NCBI GenBank assembly: GCA_021777755.1
Contig: JAJYDE010000036.1
Span: 1-40,362, forward strand
Length of the DNA: 40,362 nt
Source of the DNA: Deltaproteobacteria bacterium
GTDB taxonomy: Bacteria > Desulfobacterota > Syntrophobacteria > Syntrophobacterales > Syntrophobacteraceae
Reading direction: 5' to 3'
Shown piece after piece: positions 1,003-5,885 of the stretch. The notes beneath the pieces are model-generated. The model was not told the origin of the DNA. It did not search any database and saw nothing but the letters and a program-made list of their open reading frames with translations. Every line of letters starts with the position of its first letter. The first letter of the stretch is position 1. The position numbers and the translations under genes were made by a program.

Positions 1003-2502
1003 CTATATCGCTTCCTTCCGGGTTGCGGAGATTGCGGCTCCTCTCGCCGGCGGGTTGCAGAGAGAAAAAATCACTTGGTTCCTCACAGTCTCGGGTTTTC
1101 TTCCGATGAGTACGGGATTGGCTTTCATTGCATCCTGCAACATACGTTCTTGTTCTGCCTGGGGCAGATCGAGGAAATAGCGTTCTGCCAGAACGAATTC
1201 CTGTTCCAGGAGCTTTTCTTCGGTTTTTGTTCGATTTTCCTGTGCTTCCATGGCCTTCGAGGAGTTTTCTGCAACCAAAGCATCGTCTTTTGCGAAATCA
1301 TTTGCCATGGTCTTGGCTAAATAACCGGCGTAGCTCGTCTTGGCGTGTGTGTTGGCATGCTCGATATTGCGCCTCGCATAATCAAAGCCATTTGTTTCGT
1401 AGGCATGAGCGATCAAACGGCGGACATCGCCCCGTACACGCTCTTTCTCCGGCGCCAACTCGACCAGGGCGGCGATTTCGGATTTACATGAAGCTGCTAC
1501 CTGCAGGGGATGGAATGGGTTGTGATGCCCGCCGATACACATTTGCATTTCGGGAGGGAGTTCCACGCCCGGAAGTGGAACGGGTAGCAGTTGGTTTTTG
1601 CAGCGTGACTGCAACGTGACATCGCCGTTGCGGGAATTCGTTTCGTTTCCGTCCGCACACTTCGGGACTCCCGGTTGTGACGTATGAGTCGCAGAGTCTT
1701 CTTTGGCGTCGAAATCGGCGCCGCAGGCGGATTCAATCTGATTCGTCTCCGAATCTCCTTCGGTGGGTGAATCGCTGTGGGCGAAAGGGGCGAAGCCCCT
1801 GTCAATGTTTGGTCCGAAAGTCTCCTTTTGCGCCGCAGGCGCTTCCAATGTTCGCTTTTGGGGCGCAGCCCCTACCTTTTCTTCTTTCCGGATAGAGGCA
1901 GCCTCGTTTTCGAGCCGCATTGGGACAGGTTCTGACGGTAAGGTAGTCGTCGTTTCTTCTGGAAATGGAAATGCAAATGCAATAGGGGCGTGACAGTGCG
2001 TGACATCTGCGTGATAACCGCCGCAAACGGCCACGGGGCCTGAGTTTGCTGGGTGCGAGACATCAGCGTGACATGGCGTGACAGTGCGTGACGCATGCGT
2101 GACATCGGCGTGATTTTCAGCGTGACATGTTGCTCGGGCAGCCTCATCCCTTTGCCGTTTGTTTCTTTGTCGCGTCCTGGCCTGTTCCCTCTTTCGCTCG
2201 TCGAGTTGTATTTCGCGCACCATGCGCCGGCAGGTGATAGTAAAGATCTGACCGTCTTGCTCAAGGTCTCCGAACCCGCATGTCCGAAGATCGGAGAGAA
2301 ACTCGTTCATTTGCGCTTCGGTGGCTGCCACCAGGTTGCAAAGTTGGGTTATGTTGCCAGCTATACGTCCATATTCGGGAGCCCCGCACATGAGGTTCAC
2401 GATGGTTGCCCATATGCCCCTGCTTGCCCAGGATGCCATTCTGAGCTGAACGTCGGTGAGGTCGTCCTTATAGTAGTGTAGACGTGCGGGTCTTTTGCTC
2501 AT
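1003..2502 (-). CDS. Replication-initiator-like protein with an internal origin
   Basis: The predicted protein has 499 aa. Residues 1-100 (RLHYYKDDLTDVQLRMASWASRGIWATIVNLM ... LCNLVAAT ... FLSDLRTCGFG) resemble the winged-helix start of phage DUF1376/lambda-O-like replication proteins, which bind the origin and load helicase. Residues 120-350 are low complexity, hydrophilic and rich in His, Thr, Pro and Glu. Residues 350-460 are helical (VRRLIAHAYETNGFDYARRNIEHANTHAK) as in replisome organisers. The middle of the gene holds helically phased iterons and short hairpins at the DNA level, as in lambda O. It starts 3 nt after the small gene at 2506-2724 and is probably co-transcribed from the promoter near 3790. 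The family assignment comes from layout and N-terminal similarity, not from a catalytic motif. Confidence 0.65.
   Translation of the reverse strand: MSKRPARLHYYKDDLTDVQLRMASWASRGIWATIVNLMCGAPEYGRIAGNITQLCNLVAATEAQMNEFLSDLRTCGFGDLEQDGQIFTITCRRMVREIQLDERKREQARTRQRNKRQRDEAARATCHAENHADVTHASRTVTPCHADVSHPANSGPVAVCGGYHADVTHCHAPIAFAFPFPEETTTTLPSEPVPMRLENEAASIRKEEKVGAAPQKRTLEAPAAQKETFGPNIDRGFAPFAHSDSPTEGDSETNQIESACGADFDAKEDSATHTSQPGVPKCADGNETNSRNGDVTLQSRCKNQLLPVPLPGVELPPEMQMCIGGHHNPFHPLQVAASCKSEIAALVELAPEKERVRGDVRRLIAHAYETNGFDYARRNIEHANTHAKTSYAGYLAKTMANDFAKDDALVAENSSKAMEAQENRTKTEEKLLEQEFVLAERYFLDLPQAEQERMLQDAMKANPVLIGRKPETVRNQVIFSLCNPPARGAAISATRKEAI
1719..1872. repeat. Cluster of four short trinucleotide-loop hairpins
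   Basis: Four small perfect palindromes with 3-nt loops lie inside the replication gene. They are CGCC-GCA-GGCG at 1719-1729, GGGGC-GAA-GCCCC at 1787-1799 (extended by a flanking A/T pair), GCGCC-GCA-GGCGC at 1830-1842, and GGGGC-GCA-GCCCC at 1860-1872. Starts are 68, 43 and 30 nt apart. They lie about 115 nt from the iteron block, on the side towards the 3' end of the gene. They could be single-strand initiation or primosome sites, or a mobile mini-palindrome family. Only the palindromes themselves are observed. Confidence 0.6.
1988..2127. repeat. Iteron array, candidate replication origin
   Basis: The 8-mer GCGTGACA (minus strand TGTCACGC) or a one- or two-base variant starts at 1988, 1998, 2009, 2055, 2066, 2076, 2086, 2097, 2108 and 2120. 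Six copies are exact; the variants end in ATA, ATT or ACG, or read GCGAGACA. Within the two groups starts are 10, 11, 11, 10, 10, 11, 11 and 12 nt apart, close to one helical turn and not a multiple of three, so the periodicity is kept at DNA level and not for a peptide repeat. An A-rich tract (about 1968-1986) adjoins one end. The array lies inside the replication gene, as oriLambda lies inside gene O. Function as an origin is inferred. Confidence 0.65.
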
Positions 2503-2505
2503 TGC

Positions 2506-2724
2506 CTAGTCGCTCGCCGCCAGGTATGTTCGACGAGAAGGGCTGAACGTGATCGCTGGCCTGACGAATTTCAACTGTCGGTGCTCCAGTATGAGCCGGC
2601 AGCGGAGGCAAATGACGGAGGTCGAAGGGAACATGTCCAGTCGAAAACCGCCCCTGGCGCGTGCGCCGCAGACGGGACGGAGGTTGTCGATTGTCAGGTG
2701 CCGGATTTTGCGGGTAGAGAGCAT
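2506..2724 (-). CDS. Small Cys-containing protein of the element
   Basis: This 72-aa basic protein has a Cys pair in VICLRC at residues 38-41 and a single earlier Cys in RPVCGARARGG at residue 19. It could be a small metal-binding or nucleic-acid-binding protein, but it matches no family I recognise. An AAAGGA ribosome-binding site lies 7 nt before the ATG. The stop is 3 nt from the start of the replication gene, which suggests translational coupling. It is probably part of the minus-strand early operon of the element. It is supported mainly by its position and ribosome-binding site. Confidence 0.5.
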   Translation of the reverse strand: MLSTRKIRHLTIDNLRPVCGARARGGFRLDMFPSTSVICLRCRLILEHRQLKFVRPAITFSPSRRTYLAASD

Positions 2725-2804
2725 CTCAACATCCTTTCCCCATTGGACTACCTTTAGATATTAAGAAGCAGGATCGCTTATTATTTCTTAATTTGCGTCG
2801 GTCC

Positions 2805-2993
2805 TCATTGGTCGGTAAACTTGTCCCAATGGTCTGCCGTATCTTTTTCGAGCAGGAGCCGCATCCTGATGGCCCCTTCCACCCAGGCGGAGAAGCTCAT
2901 GTCTTTTTTCGCGGCGGAAGATTTGGCCATTTTGGTGATGGACGGTCGGATGTTGACCGAGGTGTTTTCTTTGGATTCGGACATGAAGGGCAT
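2805..2993 (-). CDS. Ribbon-helix-helix (Arc/CopG-like) small protein
   Basis: This 62-aa protein carries TSVNIRPSITKMAKSSAAKKDMSFSAW in two short overlapping stretches followed by VEGAIRMRLLLEKD. That gives a short beta strand and two helices, typical of ribbon-helix-helix DNA-binding proteins of phages, plasmids and antitoxins. The ATG at 2993 is preceded by GAAGGA; the internal ATG at 2984 has no good site. No toxin-like partner lies next to it. It sits in the minus-strand early operon, between the AlpA-like gene and the replication genes, and may be an auxiliary regulator or a replication/partition factor. The fold call is by eye. Confidence 0.6.
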   Translation of the reverse strand: MPFMSESKENTSVNIRPSITKMAKSSAAKKDMSFSAWVEGAIRMRLLLEKDTADHWDKFTDQ

Positions 2994-3267
2994 AGGAGCA
3001 TCCTTCGTTTGGAATGTTCAATGCAAAAGAACCCATTTCCCGGCCAATGCGCCGAGAAGTGCGTCGCTGCTTGGCCAGTTCCGCACACTTCGAATTTATT
3101 CAGATCGGCGACTGTATTGGACCGTCCACCGGCTTCGGTTTCGGGACTCAGAGAAGAGACAGCACCCTCCTGCGGATCGTGGCCATCTTGGCCTCATGCT
3201 TTTCATCCTCTCGATTCCATATCCCTCACGCCAGCACCCGAACTACGCCCCTGGCCAGCTCAAACAA

Positions 3268-3549
3268 TTATCGCTTACGTCCCCGGCGTACCGCCAGGAT
3301 TTCCTGGACCGCCAGGTTAACCTTGCCTCCGCTCGAATCGGCCGCCTGGCCGAGCCGGTACTCATCGATCGATACTCGGTCAAACACCCAATCGTGCCGC
3401 CCGCTGTCCGGGTCCTGGAAACCACGGACGGTTCCGGCATCGGCGAGGGCGACAAGGCGCTTCTCGCCGATGGCCGAATACCGGGCCGCTTCGCGGAGAC
3501 GAAGCCAGCGGGCGCTTGTCTCCTCCGCGCGGCTAGCCATTGTCGGCAT
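3268..3549 (-). CDS. AlpA/Xis-like HTH protein
   Basis: This 93-aa protein holds the pattern ARWLRLREAARYSAIGEKRL followed by VALADAGTVRGFQDPDSGRHDWVFDRVSIDEY. This is the MerR-like winged helix of the HTH_17/excisionase/AlpA group, in which the first helices read like 'lr-E-AA-y-s-i' and a wing carries an R-x-W/F-x-hydrophobic strand. Such proteins bend att DNA for excision or activate satellite operons. Its start overlaps the 3' end of the Cro-like gene by 17 nt in another frame, so the two are co-transcribed and probably coupled. The role in excision or activation is inferred from the fold and from the integrase in the same element. Confidence 0.65.
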   Translation of the reverse strand: MPTMASRAEETSARWLRLREAARYSAIGEKRLVALADAGTVRGFQDPDSGRHDWVFDRVSIDEYRLGQAADSSGGKVNLAVQEILAVRRGRKR

Positions 3550-3742
3550 TCTTTAATGGGTGGAGCATCGGATTCGGGTGCTCATCGGGGTAAAGCCAGG
3601 CAAGGCGGTTGATTCCGGTCTCCTTTTCCAGGCGAGCGGCCAGTCTCCTCGAAGGTGTGCGCCTGCGGTTTATGATATCGCTCAGGGCCGATGTGGAGCA
3701 CCCCGCTTTAATAGCGATTTTTGTTATGTCACCGTGTTTCAT
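3533..3742 (-). CDS. Cro-like XRE-family HTH regulator
   Basis: This 69-aa protein reads ITKIAIKAGCSTSALSDIINRRR then TPSRRLAARLEKETGI, a clear five-helix XRE/Cro domain with recognition helix STSALSDIINRR. It contains little else. An AGGAGG site lies about 10 nt before the ATG. It is the first gene of the minus-strand early operon, transcribed divergently from the repressor at 3861 across a control region with three operators. This is the position of cro in lambdoid phages or str in staphylococcal islands. It probably opposes the repressor; this role is inferred. Confidence 0.8.
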   Translation of the reverse strand: MKHGDITKIAIKAGCSTSALSDIINRRRTPSRRLAARLEKETGINRLAWLYPDEHPNPMLHPLKNADNG

Positions 3743-3775
3743 CTATCTATCGCCTCCTATCCTTGTTGGGAAAGG

Positions 3776-3803
3776 ATCCTACGCGTTACGCGGATAAAGT
3801 CAA
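3776..3803 (-). promoter_or_regulatory. Early promoter of the element, overlapped by an operator
   Basis: On the minus strand there is a -35 box TTGACT (3798-3803), a 16-nt spacer and a -10 box TAGGAT (3776-3781). The +1 would fall near 3769, about 27 nt before the Cro-like start codon. Operator O3 (3780-3794) covers the spacer and the edge of the -10 box, so a bound repressor would block this promoter. Confidence 0.5.
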
Positions 3804-3849
3804 GCAAAAATACGCATAATGAGTATTTACTTTTTACGCATTGCGCGTA
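3780..3849. promoter_or_regulatory. Three operator sites of the divergent genetic switch
   Basis: Three copies of the dyad TACGC-N5-GCGTA lie between the divergent regulators. They are TACGC-GTTAC-GCGGA at 3780-3794, TACGC-ATAAT-GAGTA at 3811-3825 and TACGC-ATTGC-GCGTA at 3835-3849. The third is perfect and extends to TTTACGC/GCGTAAA (3833-3851). The second extends to AAATACGC/GAGTATTT (3808-3828). Centres are 31 and 24 nt apart. This copies the three-operator plan of lambdoid switches with a different sequence. The regulator that binds is inferred. Confidence 0.7.
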
Positions 3850-3860
3850 AAGTTGGAAGT

Positions 3861-4361
3861 ATGAAAACGCCTGTTCACGAGGTTTTCAGCCGAGCGCTTA
3901 ATTTATGGTTACGAGGCAAGGGGCATGGAGCCCAGGCCAGCCTCGCCAAGACTACGGGTTTGTCCCCTTCCCAGATCAATGACATCCTCCATCTTCGGCG
4001 AAAAGGGGATGAGGACCAGCGAAGAGAAATTGCCGCTGCCGCCGGGTATACTTATGAAGATTTTTTGGCCCTCGCCTGTGAATCAAGGCTCGTGCGCGAA
4101 GATCCCCGCGAATCAACCGGCCTTCCGGAGGTGATCGAGCTACTGCGCAAAGCCAAGGCGGTCCTTGCATCTCCCCATGACGACATCAAGGCCGCGCTGG
4201 GGTCCAACATCGAGACATTTTTTAAGGCCGTTCAGGATCGGGAGACAATCCACCGGTTGCAGCTAAGCGTAGAGGCGCAGGACGCTCGATTAGGCGCATT
4301 GGAAGAGAAAATGAGCGAAGATCCGCCCGGGCAAAAACATGGTACAGATCAGGCAATTTAG
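3861..4361 (+). CDS. CI/Stl-like repressor without a protease domain
   Basis: This 166-aa protein has an HTH_3/XRE-type domain in roughly residues 5-65. Its helix-turn-helix reads ASLAKTTGLSPSQINDIL and is followed by the helix AAAAGYTYEDFLALA. The C-terminal third is a probable coiled coil (HRLQLSVEAQDARLGALEEKM) suited to dimerisation. There is no LexA/S24 peptidase domain, so RecA-driven self-cleavage is not expected; induction could need an antirepressor or simple titration. An ATG at 3819 is in frame but lies inside operator 2. I chose 3861, which is just past operator 3 and has GGAA 4 nt upstream. It is divergent from the Cro-like gene and co-directional with the integrase. Confidence 0.7.
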   Translation: MKTPVHEVFSRALNLWLRGKGHGAQASLAKTTGLSPSQINDILHLRRKGDEDQRREIAAAAGYTYEDFLALACESRLVREDPRESTGLPEVIELLRKAKAVLASPHDDIKAALGSNIETFFKAVQDRETIHRLQLSVEAQDARLGALEEKMSEDPPGQKHGTDQAI

Positions 4362-4769
4362 TCTTCGGTTGCTTCTGGCGGAGCAAATGACCAGTTCGGT
4401 TTCGGCCTCCAGCAGTGAAAGTATTTGCTTAGTGGCCTAGCCACTCGGTTTCGAACTGTCTATTCCACAGTATCCGTTTATTACTTGGATCACGTGTTAG
4501 GTGGAAAGCCGTGACCCTCCGCGAACTCTGAAATACTTAAGCCACGTCGCAGCATACCTCAAAGCTGTTTTTTCGTTGAACTCCGGTAGGAGGTCATTTT
4601 ATACTCCTCGTGCCACTTGGGGTGACAAACAACATATTCCAATCGTCATGCCATGTGACATGCTGGTTGCTGAATTGGCACCGGGTGGGGCCGGAAGCGT
4701 ACAATGAGCGTCCACACCTTCAATAATGGCCGAGTAATCTGCAAATGGTACTGCCATGCGAGGGAGGCC
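4362..4769. other. Repressor-integrase intergenic region with inverted repeats
   Basis: No convincing gene lies here. AGTGGC-CTA-GCCACT is a perfect dyad at 4431-4445, nested inside a wider inverted pair CAGTTCG (4392-4398) / CGAACTG (4452-4458). CGGTTTCG occurs twice in direct orientation near 4397 and 4446. These could be integrase arm-type or excisionase sites. A 68-codon frame opening with GTG at 4501 overlaps a possible upstream integrase start at 4704 as ATGA, but it has no recognisable content. Confidence 0.35.
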
Positions 4770-5768
4770 ATGCGTCTCTTTAAGCGCGGTTCAACCTACT
4801 ATGTCGAGTTCGCCCGAGGGGACAAACAGTCCCTCAAGACCTCGGACAAGAAGCTGGCCGAGGGGATCTTCACCAAGCTGCAAAAGGAAGCCCTGATGGG
4901 GCGCTTGGTGCGCCTCGATCTCGATGGAGGCATGACACTGGGGGAATTCGTGGTGCGGTATCTTGAAACCCGCACGGGGATGAGTCCCCCGACACTGAGG
5001 GCCGACCGTCTGGCTCTTTCCCATCTCGAAAACGCACTTGGATCGAAAACGCCTCTGCGTCTCATTACCCCGGAAAAGATCGAAAAATTCAAGAAACTTT
5101 GCCTTTCCGGCGCACTGTCCGCAAGTGAACGCCCGATGAAACCCGTTTCGGTCAACAGCTATCTCCGGCACATAAAAGCGGCTCTCACGGTCGCCGTGCA
5201 ATGGGGCTATCTGCAAACGCGCCCGGCGGTCAAAATGTTGAATGCCGGGAAACCCCTTCCGAGATACCTGCGCAAGGAGGAAATCGAGGCGATCATGGAG
5301 CGGTGCAGGCAATCGAAACCCGGTTTCTATCCGTTGCTACAGTTTTATCTATGGACCGGGGCGCGTCGAAACGAAGCGCTCGGCCTGGAATGGAGGTCGG
5401 TCAATCTGTCGGACAACCGTCCTTGCGCCGTCTTGACGGGCAAGGGCAACAAACAAAGAACCGTCCCGATACTCCCTGCGCTTCTGGATGTGCTCAAGCC
5501 GATGCGAAAAGAGTCCGGGCGTGTTTTCCCTCCACTCAACGAATCGACGGTCACGCATTGGTTCAAGGCCATGGCCAGGGAATGTGGCGTCAATGCCCGG
5601 CTCCACGATCTGCGGCACACCGCCGCAACATACATGGTGGCCAGCGGCATTCCCCTTACGGCCGTTCAGGAAGTCATGGGGCACGCCGAACTTACGACCA
5701 CGGGCCTGTATGCCAGGGTTGTCAAGGAGCGACTATACGATGAGATGTCGAAACTGAAATTTGATTGA
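4770..5768 (+). CDS. int: Tyrosine recombinase (integrase)
   Basis: This is a 332-aa protein if started at the ATG at 4770 (MRLFKRGSTYYVEF, a usual start for this integrase type, with GGGAGG just upstream). An in-frame ATG at 4704 would add 22 residues. It has an arm-type N-terminal domain, a SAM-like core-binding domain (about residues 50-150) and the catalytic domain. The active-site set is complete: R199 (TGARRNE), K225 (TGKGNKQR), H279 and R282 (HDLRH), H305 (MGH) and Y314 (LYARV). It integrates and, with a Xis partner, excises the element by site-specific recombination. It ends 58 nt before a tRNA-Thr 3' fragment, its probable attachment site. No frameshift or missing residue is seen. 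Confidence 0.95.
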   Translation: MRLFKRGSTYYVEFARGDKQSLKTSDKKLAEGIFTKLQKEALMGRLVRLDLDGGMTLGEFVVRYLETRTGMSPPTLRADRLALSHLENALGSKTPLRLITPEKIEKFKKLCLSGALSASERPMKPVSVNSYLRHIKAALTVAVQWGYLQTRPAVKMLNAGKPLPRYLRKEEIEAIMERCRQSKPGFYPLLQFYLWTGARRNEALGLEWRSVNLSDNRPCAVLTGKGNKQRTVPILPALLDVLKPMRKESGRVFPPLNESTVTHWFKAMARECGVNARLHDLRHTAATYMVASGIPLTAVQEVMGHAELTTTGLYARVVKERLYDEMSKLKFD

Positions 5769-5826
5769 AATGCGCCCGGAATGCACCCACGCAACTGCGA
5801 AAGAGCGCCACGCATGGACCTTCTTT

Positions 5827-5871
5827 TGATTCGTAATCAGCAGGCCGCGGGTTCAAATCCCATCGCCGGCT
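5827..5871 (+). other. Attachment site: 3' fragment of tRNA-Thr(CGT)
   Basis: The segment reads as a tRNA from the anticodon stem-loop onward: loop TTCGTAA (anticodon CGT), then a T-arm GGGTTCAAATCCC and an acceptor strand CGCCGGC. There is no D-arm and no 5' acceptor strand upstream, and the 5' side of the anticodon stem pairs for only 3-4 bp. Homology therefore begins inside the anticodon stem. This is the usual footprint of integration into the 3' half of a tRNA gene. The intact copy should lie at the other end of the element and is not in this window. Confidence 0.75.
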
Positions 5872-5885
5872 TATGTAAGATCAAT

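Follow-up and report, generated by a model that had tools for sequence, protein, structure and literature searches.

The minus-strand gene at positions 1003–2502 of the window (the whole stretch of 40,362 nucleotides analyzed here) contains, in the middle of its coding region, a dense array of short, regularly spaced repeats. This raises the question of whether the repeats serve the encoded protein or the DNA itself and, if the latter, which factor binds them and to what end.

An iteron array kept as DNA within a coding region

The array consists of ten TGTCACGC-like units spaced 10–12 bp apart, in one group of seven and one of three, and extends on the minus strand from position 2127 down to 1988 (Table 1). 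Six units are exact, three have one mismatch, and one has two. The steps from unit to unit are 12, 11, 11, 10, 10, and 11 bp, then 46 bp, then 11 and 10 bp; across the 46-bp gap between the groups, helical phase is not obvious. Two outlying units (TGTCACGT and AGTCACGC) are located ∼370 bp downstream of the array, still within the gene.

Over the whole window, TGTCACGC with one mismatch occurs at chance level (26 versus 24.6 expected), that is, there is no overall enrichment. It is the clustering that exceeds chance: nine units (one mismatch allowed) are found inside 150 nt, compared with a maximum of 4 when the ORF was dinucleotide-shuffled 1,000 times. When the ORF was resampled synonymously 20,000 times with the peptide fixed (codon usage taken from five ORFs of the window), the core TCACGC occurred 1.3 times on average and at most 7 times. 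As the actual ORF contains nine, synonymous codon choice does not account for the units. A search of the host assembly (4.2 Mb) returned two occurrences of the exact paired unit, both in the window array, and none of its reversed control.

Table 1. Features in and around the array-containing gene (positions are those of the window).
Feature	Positions	Strand	Basis
Exact TGTCACGC units	2120–2127, 2097–2104, 2076–2083, 2066–2073, 1998–2005, 1988–1995	minus	
One-mismatch TGTCACGC units	2086–2093, 2055–2062, 2009–2016	minus	
Two-mismatch unit AATCACGC	2108–2115	minus	
Iteron group 1, seven units	2055–2127	minus	Unit positions, synonymous resampling
Iteron group 2, three units	1988–2016	minus	Unit positions, synonymous resampling
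Two outlying units, TGTCACGT and AGTCACGC, 11 bp apart	1603–1621	minus	Unit scan
Period-6 tract TTGCATTTGCATTTCCATTTCC, proposed melting region	1961–1982	minus	Self-match and A+T content; similar tracts after relatives' arrays
Putative replication initiator gene, 499 aa, array inside	1003–2502	minus	Open frame; weak phrog_9474 match; no Pfam family
Predicted winged-helix DNA-binding domain, aa 11–90	2233–2472	minus	AlphaFold model, structural comparison
Arg-rich single helix, aa 92–125, proposed site-choosing part	2128–2229	minus	Predicted one continuous helix; covariation in other genes of two domain families
C-terminal module, aa about 269–474	1081–1698	minus	Matches L327 (E 4.1e-12), L332, L333
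Excisionase-like HTH protein (context)	3268–3549	minus	HTH_17 E 3e-4, under curated cut-off
Tyrosine integrase of the element (context)	4704–5768	plus	PF00589 E 9.7e-27

The tract TTGCATTTGCATTTCCATTTCC (1982–1961) comes directly after the array on the coding strand. A 36-nt segment placed there scores among the highest 1% of the ORF for period-3/6 self-match, and the 34 nt counted from the start of the tract have an A+T content of 62%, compared with 46% across the ORF. With a purine content of 42%, the tract leans toward pyrimidines, unlike the purine tracts of another domain family but like the TTC tracts of the gene's own domain family (both described below).

A referee might object that the repeat serves the protein, that is, that a His/Thr/Val-rich flexible linker was selected as a peptide repeat. 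In favor of this, the protein does contain a partial 7-residue repeat (HADVTHA/SRTVTPC/HADVSHP), encoded by pairs of units (about 21 nt, or 7 codons), and in relatives carrying GG[AT]TAA[CG]C repeats (see below), the units are in a single frame and 12 bp apart. Against it stands, besides the synonymous resampling, the fact that the coding frames at the TCACGC starts are 2,2,1,0,1,2,1 in group 1 and 2,1,2 in group 2. All three frames are in use, as they are in 16 of 18 non-redundant relatives retrieved by their DNA-binding domain. Furthermore, in one related locus (L619; genome G325, about position 1860), the frame is interrupted by a stop codon after the Arg-rich helix and before the array, yet five GTCAC units and the tract are intact beyond it. 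Because one 6-mer is read in all three frames, the heptad is a by-product of the array, and the peptide explanation is all but excluded. The sites are repeated within a coding region and kept as DNA.

An earlier note, made from the sequence alone, had claimed about ten minus-strand units 10–12 nt apart inside the coding region, in two groups of three and seven, and both claims held. Its statement that no peptide repeat is built held in part, a partial heptad being present, if only as a by-product. What it had called an A-rich flanking tract is to be corrected to the period-6 tract TTGCATTTGCATTTCCATTTCC at 1961–1982.

The encoded protein and its genetic neighborhood

The gene product matched the profile of phrog_9474 (“replication initiation protein”) only weakly (E 3.3e-4, aa 45–156) and no Pfam family, even with E allowed up to 1, so neither lambda O nor RepA_N was matched. 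An AlphaFold model of aa 1–126 (built from 19 sequences; mean pLDDT 90.2) predicts a winged helix followed by one helix comprising residues 92–125, inside which lies the Arg-rich stretch of the protein (TRQRNKR, by-eye reading). Structural comparison ranked 4pql first (Z 9.8), followed by 4pt7 (9.5), 5trd (8.8), 5kbj (8.8), and CRP (8.0). The entries 4pql, 4pt7, and 5kbj, which we take to be RepA_N proteins, are titled as initiator or Rep–DNA complex, the latter applying to 5kbj; 5trd is a riboflavin kinase regulator, an unrelated winged helix, and scores near the initiator entries, as does CRP. The model thus predicts a domain whose fold ranks nearest to plasmid initiator entries, with 5trd and CRP close to them. 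In the model of a viral gene with a domain of another type (DPKW, the type of Pseudomonas phage phi1), the Arg-rich stretch is likewise predicted to lie in one helix (residues 104–129; mean pLDDT 88.0). A PDB sequence search with the DPKW-type domain gave no match.

The C-terminal module of the protein is also found behind other replication N-terminal domains, namely, Phage_rep_org_N in L332 and an RPA-like domain (below the Pfam cut-off) in L333. An integrase gene, together with weakly matched excisionase-like and repressor-like genes, adjoins the gene, which is the last of its group. Next to the integrase gene, the 3′ part of a tRNA-Thr is present at 5827–5884 of the window, which is a likely attachment site; an intact tRNA-Thr(CGT), 93% identical, resides on another contig (G000:C69:40637–40694) and a tRNA-Thr(TGT) on C101.

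This neighborhood bears on two rival explanations. One is that the array is an operator, bound by the initiator or by a repressor of the element, which controls transcription of the operon and has no role in the start of replication. Short phased sites can indeed be operators, and repressor-like genes are nearby. However, the array is situated midway in the last gene of the group rather than at a promoter; its placement after the DNA-binding module and before the repeat tract recurs in initiator genes; and arrays are found in the initiators of several families but not in their promoters. An operator function without a replication role is therefore considered unlikely. The other is that the array is a true origin by descent but that the copy in the window is a decaying remnant. 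Few recognizable phage genes surround the gene, the contig starts 1 kb past its end (the other end of the element being outside the contig), one unit has two mismatches, and the 46-bp gap splits the array. On the other hand, the reading frame runs uninterrupted for 499 aa, and 6 of 10 units are exact. That the copy is a remnant remains possible.

Recurrence of the layout in phage genes

Three spaced copies of TGTCACGC were found at no fewer than 120 viral loci, whereas the reversed 8-mer, searched with identical gaps, gave 22. The same pattern was found at 83 loci in bacterial and archaeal genomes, many of which look, by eye, like ordinary in-frame tandem repeats. A filter then picked 45 non-redundant ORFs with an Arg-rich linker out of the pattern loci; any inference on the linker from this set would be circular, and it served solely to assess family identity, frames, and spacing, the adjacent spacing being biased by the search pattern. 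At least two codon frames are used in 44 of these ORFs and all three in 17. For the family scan, one filtered ORF was dropped and the window gene added; among the resulting 45 rows, the PHROG matches are to replication-initiation, DnaD-like, and primosomal families, the top family accounting for 13 rows. A minority matches Pfam, namely, DUF1376 (4), Phage_rep_org_N (3), DnaB_2 (2), and DnaT, DnaA_N, and HTH_5 (1 each). Genes adjoining the relatives include those for helicases or helicase loaders. The stretch of 36 nt behind the last unit has a purine content of 75% or more in 44 of 74 genes, compared with 1.5% of control stretches. The whole protein found no relative in a protein search of viral contigs and, by tblastn, a single one in named phages (E 0.03), and the DNA of 1003–5800 found no match in the phage collection.

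Independent of the array pattern, relatives of the phi1 (DPKW) type were retrieved with an alignment of the DNA-binding domain and linker only (A2); 80 loci of 581 reported were read, corresponding to 52 distinct genes. GTCACG is present at least three times in 48 of these and GTCAC at least twice in 51, the remaining gene being cut by a contig end. After exclusion of 7 of the 80 loci as too short or cut, synonymous resampling of 18 non-redundant genes gave 18.3 expected GTCAC occurrences, compared with 67 observed; taken singly, 10 of the 18 genes reached a p of 0.012. The occurrences are distributed over the three frames (21/19/27), and their spacing, here not biased by the search pattern, is 10 bp in 42 of 49 cases, 11 bp in 6, and 12 bp in 1. 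In 16 of the 18 genes, the last unit leads directly into AGATAAAGATACAG-type repeats. A generic search for repeated 6-mers proved too noisy and was rejected, as a control region within the DNA-binding domain scored high as well (30/30 of the A2 set with ≥4 units); motif-specific synonymous resampling was used in its place.

The array goes with the N-terminal half of the protein. Evi, Tritos, and pAEv1818, which are 63–68% identical to the query only there, have 9–11 GTCAC/GTGAC (9–12 per gene when phi1 is included), versus 0–4 in seven genes matched via the C-terminal half. At 42–49% domain identity, the units are GTAACGC (ctGfd272) and CGAACGCAA (ct2G2228). In the database record of Pseudomonas phage phi1 (KT887557.1; L351, 1501–2430), both the initiator gene and its iteron array are unannotated. 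The replication protein O gene of Cronobacter phage phiES15 (L350, JQ780327.1) contains a different in-gene repeat, with several copies of TTAGCC and GGCTAA arms.

Among genes with the domain type of the window itself, six found by the pattern (L280, L115, L298, L053, L034, and L089) have both this domain (phmmer E 1.6e-10 to 6.7e-5) and TGTCACGC arrays. A domain search (A4) with L280, L089, L053, L034, and L337 as queries, of which 80 loci of 546 reported were read, yielded 56 distinct genes, 4 of them with at least three GTCAC/GTGAC. Because only 2 of 40 non-redundant genes have three or more GTCAC, this core is a minority type in the domain family of the window. Instead, GG[AT]TAA[CG]C occurs 39 times in the 40 genes versus 8.1 expected (5 of 80 loci, too short or cut, were left out of the resampling); they share a single frame throughout, at distances of 12, 24, or 36 bp, and a TTC-type tract is present in 31 of the 40. 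As these units are single-frame and 12 bp apart, a peptide repeat is not excluded and remains a possibility for these relatives. Two of them, L476 and L499, illustrate this in-gene iteron class, with units at 12 bp followed by TTCATC-type repeats.

The nearest N-terminal homologues in bacterial genomes, L335 (39% identity) and L338 (33%), are without TGTCACGC; at the position of the array, L335 has two AGTAAC-type units and L338 four TGTCCG units, in both cases 11 bp apart. Judged by eye, the helix of GTCAC-containing members of the window-type family reads Arg-Gln or Arg-Lys and that of L335, with its AGTAAC units, Arg-Val; in GG[AT]TAA[CG]C members, a KLGGNP-like linker takes the place of the Arg-rich helix. 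In L439, L444, and L471, the window-type domain runs, by eye, into GIY-YIG- or HNH-like sequence, and neither iterons nor tract are present; these genes are possible natural negative controls.

Covariation of helix and iteron, and the proposed origin

Whether the initiator itself is the factor that binds the array was approached through covariation in relatives. In the DPKW-type set (A2 and A5; 83 non-redundant genes), linker and iteron classes were set up post hoc, after the A5 listing had been read. Linkers of class RKRxQR go with GTCAC in 42 of 44 genes, those of class RxRA[YFH]R with GNAAC in 21 of 23 and with GTGAC in the other 2, and those of class xxWR with (C/G)GAAC in 8 of 9; seven genes belong to no linker class. 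More specifically, in two domain families, base 3 in G-N-N-AC varies with p1, the residue that follows the anchor Arg, the count being usable in 92 of 100 genes, with 8 dropped. In DPKW genes, Lys goes with C (36/40), Gln with C (5/7), Val with A (20/20), Ser with A (4/4), and Thr with G (2/2). In the second family, of whose loci up to five came from the pattern search, Lys goes with C (9/9), Val with A (6/6), and Ala once each with A and C.

Mutual information between p1 and base 3 is 0.94 bits in the 75 usable DPKW genes, a value reached by none of the permutations within domain clusters (45, 50, or 60% identity; 2,000 each). When Lys/Gln is set against other residues and C against other bases, the counts are 41/6 and 0/28; the exceptions among the 47 Lys/Gln genes are L527, L532, L576, L587, L591, and L593. 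On the domain tree, the Lys/Gln label changes 14 times, with 7 changes forced by well-supported branches. Base 3 was predicted correctly by p1 from genes with <40% domain identity in 65 of 71 cases, compared with 52 of 75 by the nearest domain. L570 and L538, whose domains are 86% identical, combine RKQRQR with GTCAC and RVKAFR with GNAAC, respectively.

Two rules were also fixed beforehand. The first, applied to the second domain family, was correct for 15 of 17 loci, or for 10 of 12 (3 positive, 7 negative) when query loci and their copies were excluded; both misses are RK-type helices outside the expression of the rule. The second was applied to Phage_rep_org_N and DUF1376 genes of the window's phylum and contained a clause for an aromatic p4, owing to L612, a locus seen before the rule was fixed, in which Gln goes with GTAAC, against the simple p1 rule. 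It was correct for the 3 of 3 loci that could be evaluated; 9 of 12 were without an anchor or a chain of three units. In L540, a GAAAC-type unit-like sequence has apparently been inserted within the DNA-binding domain (MKRNETHET).

The covariation also speaks to the possibility that GTCAC is bound by a host factor or another phage factor rather than by the initiator. The presence of the same GTCAC core with different domain families would fit this notion. However, the iteron type changes with the linker of the initiator itself, even between near-identical domains, which a shared factor does not explain; this alternative is very unlikely.

A bolder reading, toward which the evidence tips without settling it, is that the Arg-rich helix, not the winged-helix domain, chooses the iteron by a short code. 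After the anchor Arg, Lys or Gln would specify GTCAC, Val or Ser G-N-A-A-C, and Thr GTGAC, and Trp three places further would specify (C/G)GAAC. As each gene holds both reader and site, the class would then be a natural archive, very large in size, of the evolution of DNA-binding specificity, in which origin specificity has switched repeatedly between domains that are nearly identical, as in L570 and L538. The half-sites of bZIP proteins are GTCA, GTAA, and GCAA, and a comparison with them was considered; the conserved Asn of bZIP is absent, so it is no more than an analogy.

Taken by itself, the gene in the window fits the layout of GTCAC-iteron initiators, with a predicted winged helix, an Arg-rich helix with Arg-Lys/Gln, GTCAC units ∼10 bp apart, and a simple-repeat tract. 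What is shown is that the array exists, that it is under selection at the DNA level, that it sits between the DNA-binding module and a repeat tract, and that many phage initiator genes have the same layout. The gene is likely the replication initiator of an integrated mobile element, with the origin within its own coding sequence; binding, melting, and the start of replication are inferred. This reading is best supported because selection acts on the DNA in all frames, array-bearing genes match replication-initiator families, a repeat tract follows the array directly, and the predicted fold ranks nearest to initiator entries. The N-terminal winged helix and the Arg-rich helix of the gene's own product would bind at the TGTCACGC iterons, roughly one protein to each turn of the DNA, with the Arg-rich helix reading GTCAC. 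Binding by the own product is inferred from covariation in relatives, there being no binding data, and the role of the helix in site choice and continued activity of this copy are inferences as well. The nucleoprotein array may then melt the adjoining period-6 tract and the C-terminal module may recruit the helicase machinery, both by analogy to lambda O and RepA_N.

Several findings count against an origin, namely, the rarity of GTCAC among window-type relatives, the other repeats in the nearest bacterial homologues, the pyrimidine-leaning tract, the phase-breaking 46-bp gap, and the weak match to a named family. The comparison of homologues that the earlier note had proposed gave a mixed result: L335 and L338 lack TGTCACGC but have other phased repeats in the same place, and six viral genes share both domain and TGTCACGC arrays. 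We read the sites in the nearest homologues as re-specified rather than scrambled. The note's claim of a self-contained origin in a replication gene is supported as the best reading; “lambda-O-style” held for the mode of action but failed for family membership, with no Pfam match and different repeats.

The principle of an origin inside the initiator gene is already known from lambda O and from RepA_N plasmids. In lambda and Stx phages, iterons and an AT-rich tract are located in the middle of the O gene, and extra iterons lengthen the protein; sites in the lambdoid origin were tested via synonymous changes (PMC7466680). Both lambda O and the window gene contain iterons and an adjoining tract, but these phages have four to six iterons of other sequence, and the window protein does not match the O family. 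Lambda iterons are interrupted palindromes of about 18 bp. RepA_N initiators such as pSK41 Rep have the origin within the rep coding region and a DnaD-like structure (PMC5703833). The location of the origin and a winged-helix N-terminal domain (nearest structural rows 4pql, 4pt7, and 5kbj) are what they would share with the window gene, but there is no sequence match, and the relevant sections of PMC5703833 describe neither an Arg-rich helix nor GTCAC units of 10 bp. The entries into which array-bearing genes fall (phrog_9474, phrog_3926, DUF1376, and Phage_rep_org_N) are protein families and mention no array. The iteron class, its frame-independent 10-bp phasing, and the link between helix and iteron were not found in the open-access full text searched, which excluded a likely relevant review (Weigel and Seitz, 2006).

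To our knowledge, the origins of most phages are unmapped. With the layout described here, the initiator gene itself indicates where the origin is and, in part, what its sequence is, and purified domains and oligonucleotides make it possible to test origin specificity directly. If the code between residue and base is true, these genes would provide paired data on reader and site for learning DNA recognition, hint at how related phages evade control of their replication by one another, and offer small self-contained replicons.
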